A DNA stretch of 64,000 bases from NCBI GenBank assembly GCA_937121175.1, contig CAKZKD010000001.1, positions 1-64,000 of the forward strand, given 5' to 3'. The stretch comes from an uncultured Flavobacteriales bacterium. Lineage in GTDB: Bacteria; Bacteroidota; Bacteroidia; Flavobacteriales_G; Salibacteraceae. Shown here in pieces: positions 1 through 9,205 of this stretch (position 1 is its first letter; every line of letters begins with the position of its first letter). The position numbers and the translations under genes are program-made. Below the pieces are notes generated by a model that saw only the letters and a program-made list of their open reading frames with translations, did no database searches and was not told the DNA's origin.

Positions 1-58
1 TAAATACGCTGAAAATCACAGCCGAGTGATTTACGACCGAGTGAGCGGAAATTGCTGG
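1..58 (-). other. end of a further cassette, cut by the window edge
   Basis: This stretch contains the short motif CCGAGTG twice (TCACAGCCGAGTG and TTACGACCGAGTG). The same motif recurs in the two non-coding cassettes at 3211-3460 and 5441-5690. It ends at the TAAC that opens the first attC-like site, so I infer that the cassette array continues beyond the window and that the next cassette is of the same non-coding kind. No gene is visible. Confidence 0.5.
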
Positions 59-261
59 TAACGCCCCGCAGCCAAGGCAAGTAGGGCAGAGGAAGTATGT
101 TGAGCGGCTGCAGCACCGCAGGTTCTCATCACTCTGATTGAGCGCGTGGGAAAAAACATACTGACCATTGTACTCACTTAGAAGCTAGGCTTAAAGGTTA
201 TTAAATTTCTATCGTTTCAAATATATAACAGGCCGCCCTATTTGCTTTGTGGCTGCTGTTA
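59..261 (-). repeat. attC-like site A (after the HEPN cassette gene)
   Basis: Imperfect palindrome. TAAC at 59-62 faces GTTA at 258-261. Inner box GCAGCC (68-73) pairs with GGCTGC (251-256). Between TAAC and the inner box the left arm has five unpaired bases and the right arm about one, like the unpaired central spacer of integron attC sites. Further in, GGCAAGTAGGGC pairs with GCCCTATTTGC with bulges. The stop codon of the adjacent gene lies inside the right outer box. Confidence 0.75.
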
Positions 262-1278
262 TTGCACGTTCTTTTTGTTCTCCCAGTAATATTTAAAATT
301 TAAATGGTCAATGTTGTTCGTAATTAAACTTCGTATTGAAGCTAACAATATTGCCAAAGCAAAAGCTGAATAGTCTGTGTATTCTTCGTTAAAGCCTTTA
401 AAATCGTGTCCATGTCTTGACGTGAAATCCATGTCTCCATGTATCAATCTAGAACGAAAATCATAGAGTTTGGTTAATTTCTTTTTGTATTCCTTCGGTT
501 TGCCAAGAACAATTGTGCTTTTCTCTTGTAATTGTTTCGCAACACCTGAATTTCCGACACAATAAATGGATTCAAGCCCCAGCATAATCCAGAATAAGGA
601 ATCCGTTTCAGATTGATGTATATCATCTTTTATTAAATAGGAATATGCGCTAATTGCTCGACTAGCCGCGGAATCACTTTTAATTGATAGGTTAATGTCA
701 AACTTGTTCGTCCAATCAAGAAAATCCGAAAAATTAACCGGTTGTAATTCTGGCCAACCGTAAATTGCACTTGCTTCATACGCGAAATCTCCAGAGTGAG
801 TGTAACTTCTTGTTCTACCAATCTGTTTTCCGTCTACGAACACTGCCGCTTTTAAAAATGAAATTGGGAACGCATAGCTAATATTTAAAAACAACGAAAG
901 CCTAAACAAATATGAATTAGCATAATGCAGGTAAATAAAGCCATCTTCATTATCATCTTCTACGGAAAAAACAGTGAGGCTGAGAATTAAAAAATCATGA
1001 ATGTAAAAAGTGGGTTCCACACCAGTTTTTTCTATCATTTCATTAGCGCGCTCATCCTCCTCGTTGACGAATTCAAAATTTATCGAAAGAAGTCTTTTAT
1101 AATTAGGAATCTCACACTTGTCTAGTAAATGAAGAAAACGTTCATCATTCTTATAATTATTAATTTCTTTTTTAAATTTTTCAAACTCGTCATAGCAGGC
1201 TTGAATTTCAGGAAGTGAGTTGTAATCCCTTACAGGAATATAAACTTCGATTCTCTCGGTATCTTCTTTAGGTTTCAT
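259..1278 (-). CDS. HEPN-domain (ApeA-like) protein, cassette gene
   Basis: A 339-residue soluble protein. The C-terminal third carries what looks like an ApeA-type HEPN domain: helices around residues 215-320 with the RX4H signature in RSRLIHG (near residue 278), preceded by the LFWIMLGLESIY segment common in this group. The N-terminal two thirds resemble the variable sensor half of such proteins, but I recognise no named domain there. HEPN domains are often metal-independent RNases in defence or toxin systems; a defence role here is inference. It is the only gene between attC-like sites A and B, and its TAA stop overlaps site A, so gene and site are fused tightly. Start is the ATG 66 bases inside the cassette. 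Confidence 0.7.
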   Translation of the reverse strand: MKPKEDTERIEVYIPVRDYNSLPEIQACYDEFEKFKKEINNYKNDERFLHLLDKCEIPNYKRLLSINFEFVNEEDERANEMIEKTGVEPTFYIHDFLILSLTVFSVEDDNEDGFIYLHYANSYLFRLSLFLNISYAFPISFLKAAVFVDGKQIGRTRSYTHSGDFAYEASAIYGWPELQPVNFSDFLDWTNKFDINLSIKSDSAASRAISAYSYLIKDDIHQSETDSLFWIMLGLESIYCVGNSGVAKQLQEKSTIVLGKPKEYKKKLTKLYDFRSRLIHGDMDFTSRHGHDFKGFNEEYTDYSAFALAILLASIRSLITNNIDHLNFKYYWENKKNVQ

Positions 1279-1343
1279 TAACCTCTAAATTACAATTTGC
1301 AGAAGGTTTGATTTCTTAACATGAACGAAAAAAGAATGTGCCA

Positions 1344-1470
1344 TAACGCCCCGTGGCCAAGGCATGTGCGGGATTAAAAAGTTGGACTTTGGATTTCATT
1401 CTATCGTTTGTTCGAGGTATTTCGTTTCAAATTTATACTATCGCTAGCATTTGCCTTGTGGCCACTGTTA
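1344..1470 (-). repeat. attC-like site B
   Basis: A short site (127 bp). TAAC at 1344-1347 faces GTTA at 1467-1470. Inner box GTGGCC (1353-1358) pairs with GGCCAC (1460-1465). The left outer box belongs to the HEPN cassette (GTGCCATAAC, the complement of GTTATTGCAC at 258 apart from a one-base displacement). The right outer box belongs to the next cassette (GTTATGTGC). Confidence 0.75.
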
Positions 1471-1477
1471 TGTGCTT

Positions 1478-1927
1478 TTAATTAATCGTTAAGACTCCTT
1501 TCTTTATCTTATAACTTATCAGGTTTCTACTGTCTACATTTTCTCCATTCAATTGACCTGTTGTCCAATCTTCAAGAGTCATAAAAATTGCAAGTAACTG
1601 TGCGTCCAGTTCCTTATTAGTTTTTACAGAAACTTTCCATTCTAATGGCTCACCTTTACAGTTTATGTAAACTCCAAACATTCCTTTCGCTTTAAATTTG
1701 GGGTGTGATTTTAGATATTCTGCTTCATTAAGCAACTTTTGGATTTCTAGCTTATTAAGACTGCATTCAGCTTTTTTTTGCCCTTCGAAGCTGTTAAATA
1801 ATCCGAACACACGATTATGGTCACAAATTCCTTCAACATTCTCCTTCATTTCTACCGTGGCGATAAACTGGGCGGAAAGGATTGAGGTTGAGAATAGAAT
1901 TATTGCAGATATTATTACTTTTTTCAT
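1478..1927 (-). CDS. secreted protein with TonB C-terminal-like fold, cassette gene
   Basis: 149 residues with a clear signal peptide (MKKVIISAIILFSTSILSAQ). Residues 85-145 contain a pattern seen in TonB C-terminal or energy-transducer-like domains: a VYINCKGEP strand-turn, an alternating helix, then a W..GQLNGENV turn and a final strand ending KIKKGVL. There is no membrane anchor or proline-rich linker, so it is not a classical TonB; I infer a periplasmic or exported protein of unknown role. It overlaps the preceding gene by four bases (ATGA at 1924-1927), so the two are translationally coupled within one cassette. Confidence 0.55.
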   Translation of the reverse strand: MKKVIISAIILFSTSILSAQFIATVEMKENVEGICDHNRVFGLFNSFEGQKKAECSLNKLEIQKLLNEAEYLKSHPKFKAKGMFGVYINCKGEPLEWKVSVKTNKELDAQLLAIFMTLEDWTTGQLNGENVDSRNLISYKIKKGVLTIN

Positions 1928-2232
1928 TGTTTTATTTTTAGATTTTCTATTTGAGGGTATCTGACTAATTCCGAGAAGTCAACTTTCCAAAAATCCAATT
2001 CAAACAGATTTCCAGCTTTATCTGAAGTCAACTCTATATCGACTAAAACTCCGTCTTTATCAGTGAAAACTGCTGCGGCAATTTGATTGACTCTGTTTTC
2101 TTTTTTGGTTAAATCAAATTTTATGGAGCCCATTCCTCCATCTTTCAGGTCGACGACCAATTCAGGAATTTCCAGATTTGGTCCTGCCAGAAATCGTATT
2201 AATTTTTTTTCGTTCTCTCGGATTGGTCTCAT
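1924..2232 (-). CDS. DUF6984-like small protein, cassette gene
   Basis: 102 residues, soluble, without signal peptide. The opening MRPIRENEKKLIRFL and the central LKDGGMGSIKF segment match what I recall of the DUF6984 family, small proteins of unknown function frequent in Bacteroidota and often in cassette-like settings. It is the first gene of a two-gene cassette and overlaps the start of the TonB-C-like gene by four bases. Twelve bases separate its ATG from the TAAC of site C, leaving no room for a promoter inside the cassette, so it is presumably read from upstream. Confidence 0.55.
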   Translation of the reverse strand: MRPIRENEKKLIRFLAGPNLEIPELVVDLKDGGMGSIKFDLTKKENRVNQIAAAVFTDKDGVLVDIELTSDKAGNLFELDFWKVDFSELVRYPQIENLKIKQ

Positions 2233-2244
2233 CTTAATTGCACA

Positions 2245-2452
2245 TAACGCCCCGCCGCTAAGGTAAGTGCGGGATACATGCTTTTGGGCGCGTGGGCAAA
2301 ATATTCATTCCTATTGCACTCTGATTGAGTGCGGCTGGAACCAAACACCAAAAGCATGCGAGCCGAAGACTTGGGTTTAACAAATAGGTTTATTCGTGGC
2401 ATTTCGTTTCAAATTTAATCAACTGCTAGCATTTTCCTTTTAGCGGCTGTTA
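2245..2452 (-). repeat. attC-like site C
   Basis: TAAC at 2245-2248 faces GTTA at 2449-2452 (208 bp). The inner box is different from its neighbours, GCCGCT (2254-2259), and its partner has changed to match, AGCGGC (2442-2447). This is direct covariation support for a folded site. Confidence 0.75.
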
Positions 2453-2494
2453 GCAAACGTATTGATTGGATTCTGACTTTAGTTTCGTTCAATT

Positions 2495-3025
2495 TTAGTT
2501 AGCTTTAATTCCTGATAATTTTCTAAATCTCCCGTTAGCGTCTCCGTCACTGATAAGAAACTTGGAATTAGACTTACTCCATTCAGAAAGAGTGTCATCG
2601 TAAACAAATACCGTATTTGCTATAATGAATGCGTTGCTTGGATTAGCTTCGTTTTTTTTAAAGAAGAAGATATACCACCAGTGCCTATCTCCATCAAGCC
2701 AATCATTATAACTTGATGCTTCCTTTTTATTATAAATGTGACCAACCACAGTATAATCTAATTCATTGTCCTCATCGACAGCTCGTCTACTGCCTGTAAT
2801 AAGAATTTTATCCCACTCAAAACAAGTTATTGTTTCACTTAGGTCTATCGTATCCAAATTCTGGTTTCTAAAGGAATTTTCAACCTTTTCCAGACAGAGA
2901 GTAGAGCCTTTTTCGGAAAGTCCGTCAACTGAAGCCCACCAAAAGATAAAAAAGCAAAAAACAGCTAATAACATAATTATTGGAATCGTTGCAACGAAAT
3001 AAACTATCGAGTCGAATATTTTCAT
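2495..3025 (-). CDS. small membrane-anchored protein, cassette gene
   Basis: 176 residues. One strong N-terminal membrane segment (about residues 8-30, IVYFVATIPIIMLLAVFCFFIFWW), then a soluble, probably extracytoplasmic domain with several Trp and Asp residues. I do not recognise a family. The gene is flanked by a ten-base inverted repeat unique to this cassette (GTTAGCAAAC at 2449 and GTTTGCTAAC at 3032). The ATG is seven bases from that repeat. Confidence 0.6.
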   Translation of the reverse strand: MKIFDSIVYFVATIPIIMLLAVFCFFIFWWASVDGLSEKGSTLCLEKVENSFRNQNLDTIDLSETITCFEWDKILITGSRRAVDEDNELDYTVVGHIYNKKEASSYNDWLDGDRHWWYIFFFKKNEANPSNAFIIANTVFVYDDTLSEWSKSNSKFLISDGDANGRFRKLSGIKAN

Positions 3026-3037
3026 CGGAATGTTTGC

Positions 3038-3210
3038 TAACGCCCCGCGGCCAAGGCAAGTTGTGGTTGGGAGGAAGCGGCAGTCATTTTCTCAAAAAAT
3101 GACAGAGCGACTGACCCTTTCACAAACTTACAAGTGAGACATTTGGGGTTGTTCATGGCACTAAAGTAAGGCAAACAACTCAATAACTATTTGCCTTTTG
3201 GCCGCTGTTA
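3038..3210 (-). repeat. attC-like site D (identical in kind to site H)
   Basis: TAAC at 3038-3041 faces GTTA at 3207-3210. Inner box GCGGCC (3047-3052) pairs with GGCCGC (3200-3205). An additional internal hairpin is present (TCATTTT and AAAATGA around 3090-3108). Site and neighbouring cassette together are repeated at 5271-5705. Confidence 0.75.
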
Positions 3211-3460
3211 CTCGCTGCCCCCAAGCATCCGAGTATATCAACAGAGTAAATACCCGGCTTTTCACAACCGAGTGTAAAAATGTCGGACTTGCAGAATGGT
3301 TCAGAGCCATTTTTCCTACCAACCAAAAAATGGCGACTACACAAAAGTTTCGAACTTAGTTCTTTAGAGAGATGGAGAGTTAGCTTTTCACAACTGAGTA
3401 AATAACGAGATTTTCACATCCGAGTTATTTTTCACAAGATTGACTTGGGGGATAGCTAGT
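3211..3460 (-). other. cassette without a convincing gene, copy 1
   Basis: About 250 bases lying between attC-like sites with no ORF that has a start codon. Its ends are complementary: GTTACT (3207-3212) with AGTAAC (3458-3463), and CCCCCAAG with CTTGGGGG further in. The motif TTTTCACAnCCGAGT recurs three to four times. A second copy at 5441-5690 differs at about ten positions. Possibilities are a non-coding RNA, a promoter-carrying cassette, or a decayed gene. Confidence 0.6.
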
Positions 3461-3667
3461 AACGCCCCGTGGCCAAGGCAAGTGCGGGGCAGCGATTTTG
3501 GGTGCGGCTGGAAAAATCTTCACTTCTATTGAGTTCTGATTGAGCGCGTTGGCAACCAACCACCAAAATTGCAGAATAATTAAACTTAACGTTATTTCTA
3601 TCGTTTATTCGAGGCATTTCGTTTCAAATTTACACTATCGCCAGCATTTGCCTTTTGGCCACTGTTA
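3460..3667 (-). repeat. attC-like site F
   Basis: TAAC at 3460-3463 faces GTTA at 3664-3667 (208 bp). Inner box GTGGCC (3469-3474) pairs with GGCCAC (3657-3662). The outer boxes differ on the two sides, as they belong to two different cassettes. Confidence 0.75.
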
Positions 3668-3707
3668 GCAAACGTTTATTAATCTTCGAAAGATTGGGAT
3701 TGTTCGT

Positions 3708-4267
3708 TTAAGCCCAGACAAATTTTTTATTTTTCTTAATTCGATTCATTTTCATCAGTTTAATCAATGGCTCCCATTCCCATGAGCGGATGTTAATTTG
3801 TATCCTTTCTTGCGACATCCAAAGTAATAATTGACGGGATGTGTCCATCGTAGCAAACAACATTTTATATTGATTAACTTCTTGCCAGCTATAAAGTCTA
3901 GCTGATTTTTCATTGAAGAAATTATTAACTATTATCTCCTTTTCAGAAATCCGTACTACTTTCAATCTAGACAAACCGATTAATACTAATAAACCACCAG
4001 ATAAAAGAAATAAGAATCCTTCTATCAATAATTCCGCAAGCAAATGGAATAGCCCCATGCTTGTGAATACAAACGCAGCCATGAAAAATAACATTCCACG
4101 CATATGTGTGTACCTTTTGTCAATCGTCAGTTTTATTTTATGTTGAGGAATGGTGTTTTTAAAATCTTCCTTGTGCTTTTCATAATTCTTTCGTCCAAAA
4201 TGATTCGCAACTAGCACTATAGTCAAAGCGATTATAAAGAACATTAGATTATAGGAGAGGTCTGTCA
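3708..4267 (-). CDS. membrane protein with PH-like cytoplasmic part, cassette gene
   Basis: About 186 residues from the chosen start MTDLSYNLMFF. A longer reading would start inside attC-like site G at 4322 and is unlikely. Three membrane segments are visible: residues 5-23, 56-76 and 80-100. After them comes a soluble domain with the strand pattern VVRISEKEIIVNN ... RLYSWQEVNQYK, which resembles bacterial PH-like domains of YcxB/YdbT-type proteins; that assignment is tentative. It is the only gene in its cassette, flanked by the inverted repeat GTTAGCAAAC (3664) and GTTTGCTAAC (4277). Confidence 0.6.
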
Positions 4268-4282
4268 TTGGGTAATGTTTGC

Positions 4283-4407
4283 TAACGCCCCGCAGCCATG
4301 AGTAGTAGGCCTCTCGTGGCACACTCTTCGGAACTCGGGTTTGGGTTATTAAATTTCATTCGTTTCAAAATTAAACAACACGGCCTATTACTCATTTGGG
4401 TGCTGTT
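4283..4407 (-). repeat. attC-like site G, diverged arms
   Basis: TAAC at 4283-4286 faces GTTA at 4404-4407. Inner box GCAGCC (4292-4297) meets GGGTGC (4398-4403) with one mismatch. The deeper arm is unlike the other sites but still pairs with itself: GAGTAGTAGGCC (4300-4311) with GGCCTATTACTC (4382-4393). This keeps structure while changing sequence. Confidence 0.75.
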
Positions 4408-4419
4408 AGGCCTTGTTCA

Positions 4420-5244
4420 TTAAACAACTTTATTCATATCAACAGGATAACCAGATTTCCGTAATTCTTTCGCTAAATCTAGCTTCCATTCAATTTCATG
4501 CGAAATGTAGACTACACCTGAAATGTCATTTGGCGTTTCGACCTCTCCTTTCACAATAGCGGCTACTCTTTTTCTTCCAATCTTTCCGATTAAGAATCCA
4601 TGCTCAAATACTACGTTTTGACGAGCTCTGTCTTGAAGATTTGGGCTTTTCGTTTTCTTGGCGCCGATATCACATGGAGTATATAGTACAACTCCAAATC
4701 CAACATCTGAATTACTTTCAATTTTCTCGATGATTGTTTGTCCCGAACTCGCTTGTTCGTGCAATATAATTGGTTTAAACCCCAGATCAGAAATGAACCT
4801 TGCAACTTCGGTTTTTAGTAAATCATCATGCCCATGAACAATGAAAACCTTCTCCATATCCAAAGAGTTATTCTCCACATTTGTTCTTGATTTCTCTTTC
4901 GATTGGATAAGGTCAGCTTTTAAATCAAGCTTCTCCAAAGCATGAACTTTGTTTTTAATTTTCTTTTTTAGTTTTTCAATTGGGTCTTCCATTCTTTCCC
5001 CAGTTGGTATAATGCCTTCCCAAATTCCGAATTGTTCATACTCTTTTCTGTATTCGTTATTTGGTTCATTGAAAGACTGTTTTAGTAGTTCTCGATTATA
5101 GTCATGCCACTTACAAAAATCATCTTCCAGTTCATCTAATTCTGGGTATGTCCTAATTTGCCTACTTAATAGTTCCTTGCCGAGGTCAATTCGGGTGTTA
5201 AGTTTTTCTTTAAAGGCTTGCTGCGAAATTTTTAATTCAGTCAT
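4420..5244 (-). CDS. TIR-like nucleotide-binding protein (PF10137-type), cassette gene
   Basis: About 274 residues from MTELKISQQAF; the longer frame would start inside attC-like site H. Residues 130-270 match the predicted nucleotide-binding, TIR-like family: VFIVHGHDD opening strand and loop, an arrangement of LHEQASSGQTIIEKIE, then VLYTPCDIGA and RARQNVVFEHGFLIGKIGR. The first 125 residues are helical and charged, without a named domain. Members of this family act as NAD-cleaving or nucleotide-sensing effectors in antiviral systems; that role is inference here. It is the only gene of its cassette, flanked by GTTAGGCC (4404) and GGCCTAAC (5264). Confidence 0.8.
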   Translation of the reverse strand: MTELKISQQAFKEKLNTRIDLGKELLSRQIRTYPELDELEDDFCKWHDYNRELLKQSFNEPNNEYRKEYEQFGIWEGIIPTGERMEDPIEKLKKKIKNKVHALEKLDLKADLIQSKEKSRTNVENNSLDMEKVFIVHGHDDLLKTEVARFISDLGFKPIILHEQASSGQTIIEKIESNSDVGFGVVLYTPCDIGAKKTKSPNLQDRARQNVVFEHGFLIGKIGRKRVAAIVKGEVETPNDISGVVYISHEIEWKLDLAKELRKSGYPVDMNKVV

Positions 5245-5267
5245 TTGGTAATCTTTGGAATATGGCC

Positions 5268-5440
5268 TAACGCCCCGCGGCCAAGGCAAGTTGTGGTTGG
5301 GAGGAAGCGGCAGTCATTTTCTCAAAAAATGACAGAGCGACTGACCCTTTCACAAACTTACAAGTGAGACATTTGGGGTTGTTCATGGCACTAAAGTAAG
5401 GCAAACAACTCAATAACTATTTGCCTTTTGGCCGCTGTTA
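5268..5440 (-). repeat. attC-like site H
   Basis: TAAC at 5268-5271 faces GTTA at 5437-5440. Inner box GCGGCC (5277-5282) pairs with GGCCGC (5430-5435). From the first C onwards it matches site D essentially base for base, while the outer left box differs (GGCCTAAC against GTTTGCTAAC). That boundary is exactly what cassette exchange at the TAAC/GTTA box would produce. Confidence 0.75.
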
Positions 5441-5690
5441 CTCGCTGCCCCCAAGCATCCGAGTATATCAACAGAGTAAATACCCAGCTTTTCACGACCG
5501 AGTGTAAAAGTGTCGGACTTGCAGAATGTTTCAGAGCCATTTTTCCTACCAACCAAAAAATGGTGACTGCACAAAAGTTTCGAACTTAGTTCTTTAGAGA
5601 GATTGAGAGTTAGCTTTTCACAACTGAGTAAATAACCAGATTTTCCCATCCGAGTTATTTTTCACAAGATTGACTTGGGGGATAGCTAGT
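5441..5690 (-). other. cassette without a convincing gene, copy 2
   Basis: Near-identical to 3211-3460, with about ten substitutions. An open frame of 79 codons (5410-5649) exists on the minus strand here, but its start codon is a stop in copy 1. Nearly all differences between the copies would change the amino acid, so there is no sign of selection on protein. The ends pair as GTTACT (5437) and AGTAAC (5688). Confidence 0.6.
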
Positions 5691-5884
5691 AACGCCCCGT
5701 GGCCAAGGTAAGTAGGGCTGTGGAGGCAAATTGTGTGTAGGCCAAAAAAACACCGCGTACTGATTGAGCGGGCGGGGAAAATTTGCCGACCATGCAGAGG
5801 CCTTGGAATTTTAACTTTCGGTTCATAAATAACTATCGTTCCAAATATAGCACAAACGCCCTATTTGCCTTTTGGCCACTGTTA
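5690..5884 (-). repeat. attC-like site J (nearest the recombinase)
   Basis: TAAC at 5690-5693 faces GTTA at 5881-5884. Inner box GTGGCC (5699-5704) pairs with GGCCAC (5874-5879). The deeper arm AGTAGGGC pairs with GCCCTATTTGCC. The stop codon of the adjacent gene (5888-5890) lies inside the extended outer box TAATGCTAAC. Confidence 0.75.
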
Positions 5885-5887
5885 GCA

Positions 5888-6421
5888 TTAGTCCGTTTTA
5901 TTTTCACAGTAGTCAACCCATTTATATAAAAGCTTCATATTCAAGTTCAACGAATCTCCAAATTCTCTGTGTTCAGCGTTGAAGCTCATATCATATAAAG
6001 TATCCGAATTACTTAAAATAAGCATGTGTTGAGCTGCTCCATCATGGATAATCACATCTTCGGGATATATTGGTAATTCAGGTCTAATTGAAAGAATATT
6101 AGTAGAATCTAAGAATTTGAAAATAGCTTCTTGGCAGGTCTTGTTCTCAGTTTTTTGAACTTTTACTTTTGCTTTATTGGAAAGGTAATATTCTGTAATT
6201 ACAGAATTCGAGAGGGTCATGAATTTTAAACTTGAACCAAGGTAATATTTGACATAGACTACCGAATCTCGGGTTAATCCAAGTTCTGCAATACTTTCAT
6301 CAATTTTATCATAAGACTTTCTCATGTTTCTATAATAATTCCGGTCCTTTAAAGAACTGTGACACCCTGATATGAATATCCCAAAAGAAAAACTAGTTAT
6401 TAATAAAGCAATTGATTTCAC
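5888..6421 (-). CDS. lipoprotein of unknown function, cassette gene next to the recombinase
   Basis: About 177 residues from a GTG start that gives a clean lipoprotein signal, MKSIALLITSFSFGIFISGC. The longer ATG reading at 6475 would begin outside the cassette, in the recombinase 3' flank. The mature part is soluble and about 155 residues; I recognise no family. The gene is flanked by the inverted repeat GTTAGCATTA (5881) and TAATGCTAAC (6437). As the cassette closest to the recombinase it would be the most recently inserted one by analogy with integrons. Confidence 0.65.
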   Translation of the reverse strand: MKSIALLITSFSFGIFISGCHSSLKDRNYYRNMRKSYDKIDESIAELGLTRDSVVYVKYYLGSSLKFMTLSNSVITEYYLSNKAKVKVQKTENKTCQEAIFKFLDSTNILSIRPELPIYPEDVIIHDGAAQHMLILSNSDTLYDMSFNAEHREFGDSLNLNMKLLYKWVDYCENKTD

Positions 6422-6439
6422 TTGATGTGCGAGGATTAA

Positions 6440-6484
6440 TGCTAACTCGTTATATAACACACCAAATCTACGCATATCAACCGC
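6440..6484 (-). other. candidate attI-like insertion site
   Basis: This is the gap between the recombinase stop and the first cassette. It has a perfect ten-base palindrome GTTATATAAC (6449-6458) three bases from the cassette boundary TAATGCTAAC (6437-6446). No full attC-like arm is present on the recombinase side, so the array ends here and the short palindrome is the natural candidate for the primary site. Inference from position and symmetry only. Confidence 0.4.
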
Positions 6485-7249
6485 TTATTTACGTGATAAG
6501 AGTGCATTTTTACTATTTCCCTTACCCGATTCTAACTCAATTTGTTTTGCATTTGCAACCATGGTATCAAATGGACTGCGGACCTTTAATAATTCCTTTT
6601 TCGTGACATGAGTGTATATCTGAGTCGTCTCAGGCCTTGAATGACCCAATAGTATTTGTACATATCGTAAATCCACCCCTTGTTCCAGCAAATGCGTAGC
6701 ATAACTGTGCCGAAAAGTGTGAGGTGTAACACGCTTCTTTATTCCGGCCTTGCTCACAGCACGTCTTATTATCGAACGAACACTAGTTGCAGAATAAGGA
6801 GCACCTTCCGATCCTAAAAATAGGTGGTCACGAGGAGTATATTCCATAATATACGAACGTAATAAAACCGCCAGCCCATCTCCTAAACTAACCACTCGCC
6901 ATTTTCCTCCTTTTCCATTTTTTATTGAAATCTCCATTCGGTCAAAATCCAAATCGTGTACCCTTAAATTCAACAGTTCACCAACCCGCAATCCAGCTCC
7001 ATATAGCAACGAAACTATGACTCGGTGCTTTACATTTTTTAAATGCCTGAGTATATCCAATACTTCTTCGGAACTCAAAACAGTAGGTAATGCCTTTAAG
7101 CGTTTGGGTGCTTGAAGGTCTTCCTGTGGCAAAAATTGTTGCGGTAGCAATTGTTGCAAAATCTTTAGAGCAGCAATAAACTGTCTGTGATAGCTCCTTT
7201 GAATAATGATGCTTGACAATATATTCTGCAGAAAATCGCTCAACGTCAA
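6485..7249 (-). CDS. tyrosine recombinase, catalytic part (frame broken near 7195)
   Basis: Catalytic half of a tyrosine recombinase. The visible active-site residues are Arg in GAGLRVGELL, Lys in KNGKGGKWR, HTFRH, His in LLGHSRPETTQIYTHV, and the nucleophile Tyr in the same stretch. Length and spacing are XerC/XerD-like; the roughly 20-residue insertion that marks integron IntI proteins between the Lys and the HxxR box is absent. The N-terminal half continues in another frame (see next entry); the real product needs a one-base shift near the AAAGGAG at about 7193-7200. It reads in the same direction as the cassettes and ends 39 bases from the first cassette boundary. The TTG opening this frame is probably not the true start. 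Confidence 0.8.
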   Translation of the reverse strand: MTLSDFLQNILSSIIIQRSYHRQFIAALKILQQLLPQQFLPQEDLQAPKRLKALPTVLSSEEVLDILRHLKNVKHRVIVSLLYGAGLRVGELLNLRVHDLDFDRMEISIKNGKGGKWRVVSLGDGLAVLLRSYIMEYTPRDHLFLGSEGAPYSATSVRSIIRRAVSKAGIKKRVTPHTFRHSYATHLLEQGVDLRYVQILLGHSRPETTQIYTHVTKKELLKVRSPFDTMVANAKQIELESGKGNSKNALLSRK

Positions 7250-7694
7250 CCATAGATATGTGCAAAGGATGCTTTTTACAATAATAAAAGAAGCCCTTTA
7301 TCATGTTGTAATACGTATCAATTGTAGTCTGTGCATATCTGGCCGATTTCATTCTGCGAGTAAAAAAATACAAAACCTCCCGAACCTCTTTTTGTTCATC
7401 AACTGAGGTCAGTTCTCGATACTTTATTCTTTTGGTTAATTGAGCATAAGGCAGTTTTCGCGCATCAGCCAAAAACTGTTCAAATTCTACTTTAGCAATG
7501 TTCTTAAATGCAGACTTAATTTTTTTGTAATTCGTGCGGTCCAAAGGCAAATACCAAGCATTCTTAGTGTAACTCCAATTAGCCCCAATCTGTTTGCAAA
7601 GAGATTTTAAATGCTGGTCGAACTCAAAGACAATAAAAATTTGATTTTGATTTCTGTGAAACCCTAGTTCGAGTCGAATCGTTTTAGTTGGCAT
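7200..7694 (-). pseudogene. tyrosine recombinase, N-terminal part (frameshifted)
   Basis: This frame supplies the N-terminal half of the recombinase. About 75 residues form an accessory domain with the motif NWSYTKNAWYLPLDR, also seen in other Bacteroidota integrases. A SAM-like core-binding domain follows (TTIDTYYNMIKGFFYYCKKH) and ends in YIVKHHYSK. Reading then has to skip one base to join SYHRQFIAALKILQQLL of the downstream frame; without it the frame runs on as nonsense to 6978. The chosen ATG at 7694 begins MPTKTIRLELG; an ATG further up at 7751 is possible. The cause may be a mutation, a sequencing error, or a +1 programmed shift helped by the Shine-Dalgarno-like AAAGGAG. Confidence 0.7.
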
Positions 7695-7811
7695 ATGGTA
7701 AGAAGGTTTAAATTGATTGTACAAACCTAGCCAAAAAGGAAACCAATGCAATTAAAAAAAAATGGTTATTAAATTCAACTCAACCGTAACTCTATTTCTC
7801 AACACCAAAGT

Positions 7812-8566
7812 AAATGCCCAGCCGGCATGAGGCGAAAAAATGCAACCATTCAATCAATCAATTCATTACTACAATTCACCCAACATTAACACCAAGCAAA
7901 AGGTTTTTTCAGAGCTAGCGAGTTATGTTCGCAATCGCGTCCTGCATGGCAGGAAGAAGCGTTGAGAACAAACAACGAGCGTTGCTTGCAAGCTCCTATA
8001 AAACCTCCAAAGCGTTTTTGTTTCCTTTTGAGGTTTTGGTCAAAAGGAAATGCCCAGCCTGCACGAGGCGAAAAAATGCAACCATTCAATCAATCAATTC
8101 AATACTATAATTCACTCAATATTAAACCAGGCACGAATTTTTTTTCAGAGCTAGAGAGTTATGTTCGCAATCGCATCCTGCATAGCAGGAGGAAGCGTGG
8201 AGAACAAATAACGAGCATTGCTTGCAAGCTCCTTAAAAACCTCCAAAGCATTTTTGTTTCCTTTTGAGGATTTGGTCAAAAGGAAATACCCAGCCGGCAT
8301 GAGGCGAAAAAATGCAACCATTCAATCAATCAATTCAATACTATAAATCACCCAATATTAAACCCTGGCAAGAGGTTTTTTTAGAGCTAGCGAGTTATGT
8401 TCGCAATCGCGTCCTGCATGGCAGGAAGAAGCGTGGAGAACAAATAACGAGCGTTGCTTGCAAGCTCCTTTTAAAACCTCCAAAGCGTTTTTGTTTCCTT
8501 TTGAGGTTTTGGTCAAAAGGAAATGCCCAGCCGACACGAGGCGAAAAAAACGAGACCATTCCATCC
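7812..8566. repeat. 236-bp tandem repeat, three copies plus a partial fourth
   Basis: Units begin at 7812, 8048, 8284 and 8521 (spacing 236, 236 and 237); the fourth stops after about 45 bases. Each unit holds a hairpin CCTGCATGGCAGG, an inverted repeat GAGC...GCTC, and a strong 11-bp stem with an 8-base loop (8021-8031 with 8040-8050 in the first unit, TTTCCTTTTGA paired with TCAAAAGGAAA). Open frames cross the units on both strands, but the first copy carries a stop and differences are not biased to silent sites. It fills the space between the recombinase and the next gene. Confidence 0.85.
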
Positions 8567-8602
8567 AATCCATCTCATTCATCCACCCAAACAAACCTCC
8601 AT

Positions 8603-9205
8603 TTACTCCAAATAAAACCGAACCCCAGCGTTAATCACCATTCCATTAGAATAGAGTGGATTTGTAACCACCTTATTTTCCTTGGCACCAGTACCTACAT
8701 GACCTATTTCTATAAAGTAGTTATTAAACTTGCTCATAAAAAATTCGAATCCAATAACTCCATACCCCCCCAATTCGTAGTCTTCAGATGAAAATGCATC
8801 CGATGGTAGAATCAGAATGCCACCGCCTTCACCGTATAATCGGATGTAATCACCAATTTTACCGCCAACCCCAATCAATCCTAACGAAATGTTTGAATAA
8901 GGAGATAAGGTTGAAACTCCTGCTGCAAGGTGTTCATTAAACATGAGGTTCGCTCGTAATCGCACAGCCATTCGGTCGTACAAAAAAAATGGACTTGTAA
9001 CATTTAGCCCTATTCCAAAGTCATCTTGTATTTGAGTCAATTGTATTCCGAAACCAACACCTGTATTTAATGTGCTTTCTATAAAGCATTGTTCTACAGT
9101 CTCTTGAGGGTTTGTTTTTTTTAGCGAAATACTATCAGTTATTTGAGCAAATGCCCCAAAAGAGCAAAGAGTAAGCATCACAATCACTATTGAATGTTTT
9201 TTCAT
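8603..9205 (-). CDS. outer-membrane beta-barrel-like protein
   Basis: 200 residues with signal peptide MKKHSIVIVMLTLCSFGAFAQ. The mature part is a run of alternating strands separated by short turns (GVGFGIQLTQIQDD, RLRANLMFNEHL, SLGLIGVGGKIGDYIRLYGEGGG) and ends on an aromatic-rich strand, VINAGVRFYLE, typical of small Bacteroidota outer-membrane barrels. Function unknown. It lies 50 bases downstream of the TonB-dependent receptor gene on the same strand and may be co-transcribed with it. Confidence 0.65.
   Translation of the reverse strand: MKKHSIVIVMLTLCSFGAFAQITDSISLKKTNPQETVEQCFIESTLNTGVGFGIQLTQIQDDFGIGLNVTSPFFLYDRMAVRLRANLMFNEHLAAGVSTLSPYSNISLGLIGVGGKIGDYIRLYGEGGGILILPSDAFSSEDYELGGYGVIGFEFFMSKFNNYFIEIGHVGTGAKENKVVTNPLYSNGMVINAGVRFYLE

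Follow-up and report, generated by a model that had tools for sequence, protein, structure and literature searches.

Integrons of the IntI type, among them the class 1 integrons and the Vibrio superintegron, are known by an integrase, an attI site with a G/TT crossover, one-directional cassettes, imperfect-hairpin attC sites and superintegron size. The locus described here shares these features. Its recombinase differs from IntI in lacking the IntI insertion, carrying an additional N-terminal domain and falling in another clade, and the recombinase gene points toward attI. The insertion is treated as defining and essential for integron integrases and is used to distinguish them. Escudero et al. 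proposed that the gain of this I2 domain opened single-strand recombination (PMC4792948), and PMC8138268 and PMC9668308 report the insertion as essential for integron recombination in the enzymes studied, which counts against the explanation that we favor below.

Three other groups come close. In the 'atypical' integrons of Treponema (PMC3607928), intI is likewise transcribed toward attI, along the cassette direction; their integrases, unlike ours, are filed as IntI in that paper. XerA and other Xer recombinases also have no insertion; unlike them, the family studied here has an extra N-terminal domain and attC arrays, and XerC/D are placed outside its group. The family may be among the members of the 'integron-like subgroup' of tyrosine recombinases (Smyshlyaev 2021, PMC8138268), with the difference that the passages of that paper on the subgroup take integrons to depend on the insertion for their function; the same passages contain nothing on arrays, the N-terminal domain or a Bacteroidota class. 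IntegronFinder 2.0, which relies on an IntI-specific profile with a cut-off, reported a single complete integron in Bacteroidetes, that of Salinibacter ruber (PMC9024848). Some members of our family carry the RefSeq label 'site-specific tyrosine recombinase/integron integrase', so a label exists; no description of the integrase class was found in the literature searched, a body that leaves out most subscription papers and all preprints.

The recombinase and its family

The window, a stretch of 64,000 nt from an uncultured Flavobacteriales bacterium, carries two overlapping minus-strand ORFs, 6978-7751 for the N-terminal half and 6485-7249 for the catalytic half of a single tyrosine recombinase (Table 1). 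Once joined, the halves align over 397-401 residues with two orthologs from related genomes, without a gap at the joint. One ortholog (L064, 64% identity) is intact with 404 aa, and the other (L066, 66% identity) has an in-frame stop elsewhere in the gene. The catalytic residues R, K, H, R, H and Y are all found in the window recombinase and are invariant across its family. Arg I and the H-x-x-R-H motif lie 91 residues apart in the window recombinase and 90-92 in 28 relatives; in the five canonical IntI from this phylum that were measured by motif search the spacing is 133 (the insert is visible in all 16 aligned), and in the Xer proteins of the genome it is 98 and 94. The IntI insertion (~42 residues; I2, an additional domain of the catalytic domain) is therefore missing from the family. 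With TIGR02249 (cut-off 265 bits), the catalytic half of the window scores 191.3 bits and L137, an intact member from the isolate Algibacter onchidii, 190.8 bits, both below the cut-off; the best profile for both is NCBIfam NF040815, yet under its cut-off as well. The best fold match of L137 is IntI (2a3v), followed by XerA, and XerA/Xer structures (4a8e, 5hxy, 1a0p) are among the best PDB profile matches of the recombinase.

In a 58-row tree, built by a quick method with no bootstrap and with its deep branching order unresolved, the window recombinase groups with other Bacteroidota proteins in a clade (support 93) separate from that of canonical IntI (support 100), and XerC/D stand outside the group of these two clades (support 99). 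The genome encodes five tyrosine recombinases in all, XerC- and XerD-like genes among them and none a canonical IntI. Judged by its sequence, the window recombinase is a member of a Bacteroidota family distinct from both IntI and XerC/D. An earlier note on this DNA had described a noncanonical integrase that kept every catalytic residue, lacked the IntI-specific insertion and carried an extra N-terminal domain, and all four points are borne out. The note had also named kinship with genomic-island integrases never seen beside such arrays as the result that would speak against it; the opposite was found, in that the clade repeatedly adjoins attI/attC arrays.

The extra N-terminal domain, of ~80 residues and with NWSYTKNAWYLP, is common to the whole family. 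A profile made from this domain only has matches in 48 of the 247 genomes sampled from the phylum, most of them within recombinase-sized frames. Modelled alone, the domain reached a pLDDT of 84, and ranks 1-6 of its structural matches are all XPB, in the N-terminal damage-recognition region (Z 6.2-7.0, 54-58 residues, rmsd 1.6-2.1); against the SMARCAL1 HARP domain the values are Z 3.6 and rmsd 1.9. On its own, Foldseek returned no significant match to the domain from the PDB. Single members match the Pfam families HARP (best 0.0013) and DUF5710 weakly, and in a viral library phage HARP-like and helicase-associated predicted proteins match with marginal E-values. The model is thus suggestive of a resemblance to the DNA-structure recognition domains XPB-DRD and HARP, at a level of match below that which excludes a common arrangement. 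Two members (L181 and L142) have two copies of the domain or far longer N-termini; L181 is followed by six attC-like matches.

A second family member, intact and with 38% identity to the window type, lies elsewhere in the same genome (L056, G000:C4:84246-85433), with its own attI-like site and attC of a different type downstream. Among the matches listed, recombinases on Klebsiella and Aeromonas plasmids (H10-H14) match the catalytic part of the family (47% over 62% of the query), and a tally of plasmid recombinases matching that part includes 50 Acinetobacter records.

The attI site, attC sites and cassettes

The core found past the recombinase stop occurs, with small variations, at the same place in the window, L064, L066, L048, L128, L130, L131 and L134. 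Identity among the window, L064 and L066 is 83-90% over the 30 nt left of the cut and 27-43% to its right. The attI site is not the same in all subclades: generic attI patterns caught only 19 of 62 loci, compared with 1.6 expected. Two Chryseobacterium plasmids (L250 and L252) share a stretch of 3.2 kb at 90% identity, which stops precisely at the GTT of attI, with unrelated DNA beyond, and L250 runs on into cassettes bearing attC. The contigs of two relatives (L048 and L144) terminate exactly at ...GTTA, as expected where the first cassette varies. These sequences point to an attI with a G/TT crossover adjoining the integrase gene. A hairpin-like element of ~90 nt, GCCGCACA..AGCACATTTGGTTTTTGCCGACAC..AAAACCAAAAGAGCT..GCCAACGC, which is unlike attC, recurs close behind the attI point: at 9470-9551 in L056 and just past attI in L036, L039, L046, L047 and L054.

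Table 1. Features annotated at the recombinase and in the cassette array of the window
Feature	Position	Strand	Remarks
Recombinase, N-terminal half: extra ~80-aa domain (7440-7694) and SAM-like core-binding domain	7201..7694	-	PF13495, 1e-07
Joint, one-base frame change	7194..7206	-	Intact in orthologs L064 and L066
Recombinase, catalytic half, other frame	6485..7200	-	PF00589, 3.1e-43
attI-like core TATATAACGAG/TTA	6443..6456	-	29 nt past recombinase stop; orthologs share core, diverge after GTT
Cassette 1 ORF, 195 aa, probable lipoprotein	5888..6475	-	Mechanical start upstream of attI
attC 1	5690..5883	-	
attC 2	5268..5439	-	
Cassette 3 ORF, 289 aa, CAP12/Pycsar-type TIR effector	4420..5289	-	6e-39; PADLOC PDC-S35, 2.6e-88
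attC 3	4283..4407	-	
Cassette 4 ORF, 204 aa, hydrophobic stretches by eye	3708..4322	-	
attC 4	3460..3666	-	
attC 5	3038..3209	-	
Cassette 6 ORF, 176 aa, no family	2495..3025	-	
attC 6	2245..2451	-	
Cassette 7, two ORFs: 102 aa (DUF6984) and 149 aa	1478..2232	-	
attC 7	1344..1469	-	
Cassette 8 ORF, 339 aa, no family above cut-off	259..1278	-	
attC 8	59..260	-	Contig end just past site, within array

The window holds eight attC sites of 125-207 nt each. An integron is recognized by at least two attC sites with a conserved hairpin in a cassette array, and such an array is present here. In ten sites (the eight of the window and two of L066), the 16 stem pairs are paired in 96.9% of cases, as opposed to 22-44% with slid partners, and seven pairs show changes on both sides (covariation). 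In the two sites folded both ways the bottom strand gives the more stable fold, a known property of attC. A covariance model built from the sites described here finds 75 places at E<1e-7 in the genome, on 11 contigs (C1, C3, C5, C9, C14, C20, C29, C30, C31, C36 and C38), and several small contigs begin at a near-identical offset in or beside attC. The array was probably broken up by its own repeats, with the contig of the window beginning inside it; the array of the genome is superintegron-sized, and most of the sites belong to a fragmented superintegron. An Rfam scan of 1-9000 gave no matches.

Among 62 complete cassettes of this genome (median length 789 bp), the longest ORF is on the attC strand in 50 and on the opposite strand in 5, and 7 have no ORF of at least 60 aa. 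Recombinase and cassettes point the same way, on the same strand, as the earlier note had it. The TIR effector of cassette 3 is, by its sequence matches, a candidate anti-phage gene. The segments 3022-3321 and 5252-5551 are copies at 97% identity, each comprising an attC and a cassette with no clear ORF, and represent a duplicated, probably non-coding cassette. Just upstream of the recombinase, 7807-8600 contains three to four head-to-tail copies of a 236-bp unit, diverged copies of which lie on contigs C37 and C2 of the same genome.

Linkage to arrays and the source of the cassettes

With a strand-symmetric scan, 39 attC-like sites were found in 151 kb downstream of a first set of relatives and 7 in 255 kb upstream. 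In a second set of 28 named loci (Algibacter, Winogradskyella, Seonamhaeicola, Flavobacterium, Zunongwangia, Algoriphagus and others, a few genomes possibly being in both sets), the counts are 35 in 129 kb downstream and 1 in 225 kb upstream. The density of attC-like sites downstream of family members is about 60-fold higher than upstream. About half of the 28 named loci have no attC, several of them with <1.5 kb of contig remaining. First-order shuffles of 74 kb gave 1.8 attC-like sites, compared with 29 observed, and the finder also picks up canonical IntI loci, as expected. For recombinases with no match to the N-terminal domain, 305 kb contain 11 attC-like sites; 8 of these are at L181 and L152, where upstream frames carry the N-terminal domain as well. 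The arrangement of integrase, attI and cassettes recurs across the class. It is evident in the isolate A. onchidii (L137), where an intact integrase is followed by attI and then by cassettes, all ORFs of at least 90 aa being co-directional except two overlapping antisense frames. Full-length members with the N-terminal domain, counted as genomes with a profile match beginning at position 50 or before, are present in about 89 of 197 sampled genomes of the class of the window (about 45%). Canonical IntI above its cut-off occurs in 85 of 296 genomes of the phylum and in just 1 of 73 of this class.

These data bear on whether the recombinase built the array next to it. The cassettes could form a CALIN, placed by a canonical IntI that is now lost or elsewhere, with the adjoining recombinase an unrelated genomic-island or Xer-like enzyme. 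CALINs do outnumber complete integrons (PMC9668308), and the enzyme here falls outside the definition of IntI. This account is nevertheless rejected as quite improbable on the attC enrichment and attI: the enrichment downstream of the family extends across the class, the attI core lies directly past the gene, related plasmids diverge exactly at attI, and IntI is nearly absent from the class and absent from this genome. The recombinase is instead very probably, on sequence grounds, the integrase of a Bacteroidota-type chromosomal integron, its frame shift reflecting a pseudogene or an assembly error rather than programmed frameshifting. Its gene is transcribed toward the attI core behind its stop, beyond which lie one-directional cassettes, each ending in a hairpin-forming attC. 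From this anatomy, the linkage and the plasmid pair, we infer that the family recombines attI with attC. By analogy with known integrons, a folded bottom-strand attC would recombine with double-stranded attI at G/TT, so that a new cassette would enter next to the integrase gene, and cassettes would also be excised as folded bottom-strand attC. The N-terminal domain may take over from the IntI insertion in helping to recognize the folded attC.

The frame change and its meaning for the class

The one-base offset between the halves of the recombinase, seen correctly in the earlier note, had been read there either as a recent loss of the enzyme or as programmed +1 frameshifting of the prfB kind at a Shine-Dalgarno-like AAAGGAG. 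Both halves are otherwise clean and open, and most differences are at third codon positions in each half, which speaks for a programmed shift. Both orthologs, L064 and L066, however, read through the joint in a single frame and need no shift, which makes programmed frameshifting unlikely, and a prfB-type shift site is not conserved in these relatives. The shift point has no stop codon and no obvious slow codon, and AAAGGAG overlaps the shift point rather than sitting ahead of it. L064 encodes S-R-S at this position with an AAGGAG string of its own; the supposed Shine-Dalgarno signal is therefore ordinary coding sequence. Programmed expression is thus rejected as very improbable, and the other half of the earlier reading, recent loss of the enzyme (or an assembly error), is favored. 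The window copy most likely carries one frame-shifting lesion, to judge from the ortholog alignments, and is either a recent pseudogene or an assembly error. The latter, with the integrase intact and active, is a variant of the favored explanation rather than a rival. That the gene is clean apart from one lesion, and that the assembly is fragmented within the array, would fit such an error, but the site has no long homopolymer, L066 has its independent in-frame stop, and pseudogenes make up about a third of intI genes (PMC2426708); we hold an error to be rather unlikely.

A real frame shift would mean that the superintegron of this genome currently has no enzyme of its own; the intact paralog in the same genome could serve the array in trans. 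Integrase pseudogenes (PMC2426708) and attI-facing integrases (PMC3607928) are known, so neither the broken gene nor its direction is unusual. The type of integrase and its range are. It is an evenly balanced proposition that a phylum-scale class of integrons evolved the recombination of folded attC in a different way, with no IntI insertion and with a HARP/XPB-DRD-like N-terminal domain reading DNA structure. If the family does drive integrons, complete integrons would be common in Bacteroidia, plasmids included, and would have been missed or counted as CALINs. A question posed in 2016 (PMC4792948) would thereby become testable, namely whether the I2 insertion is required for an enzyme to recognize folded single-stranded attC or whether there is another route.
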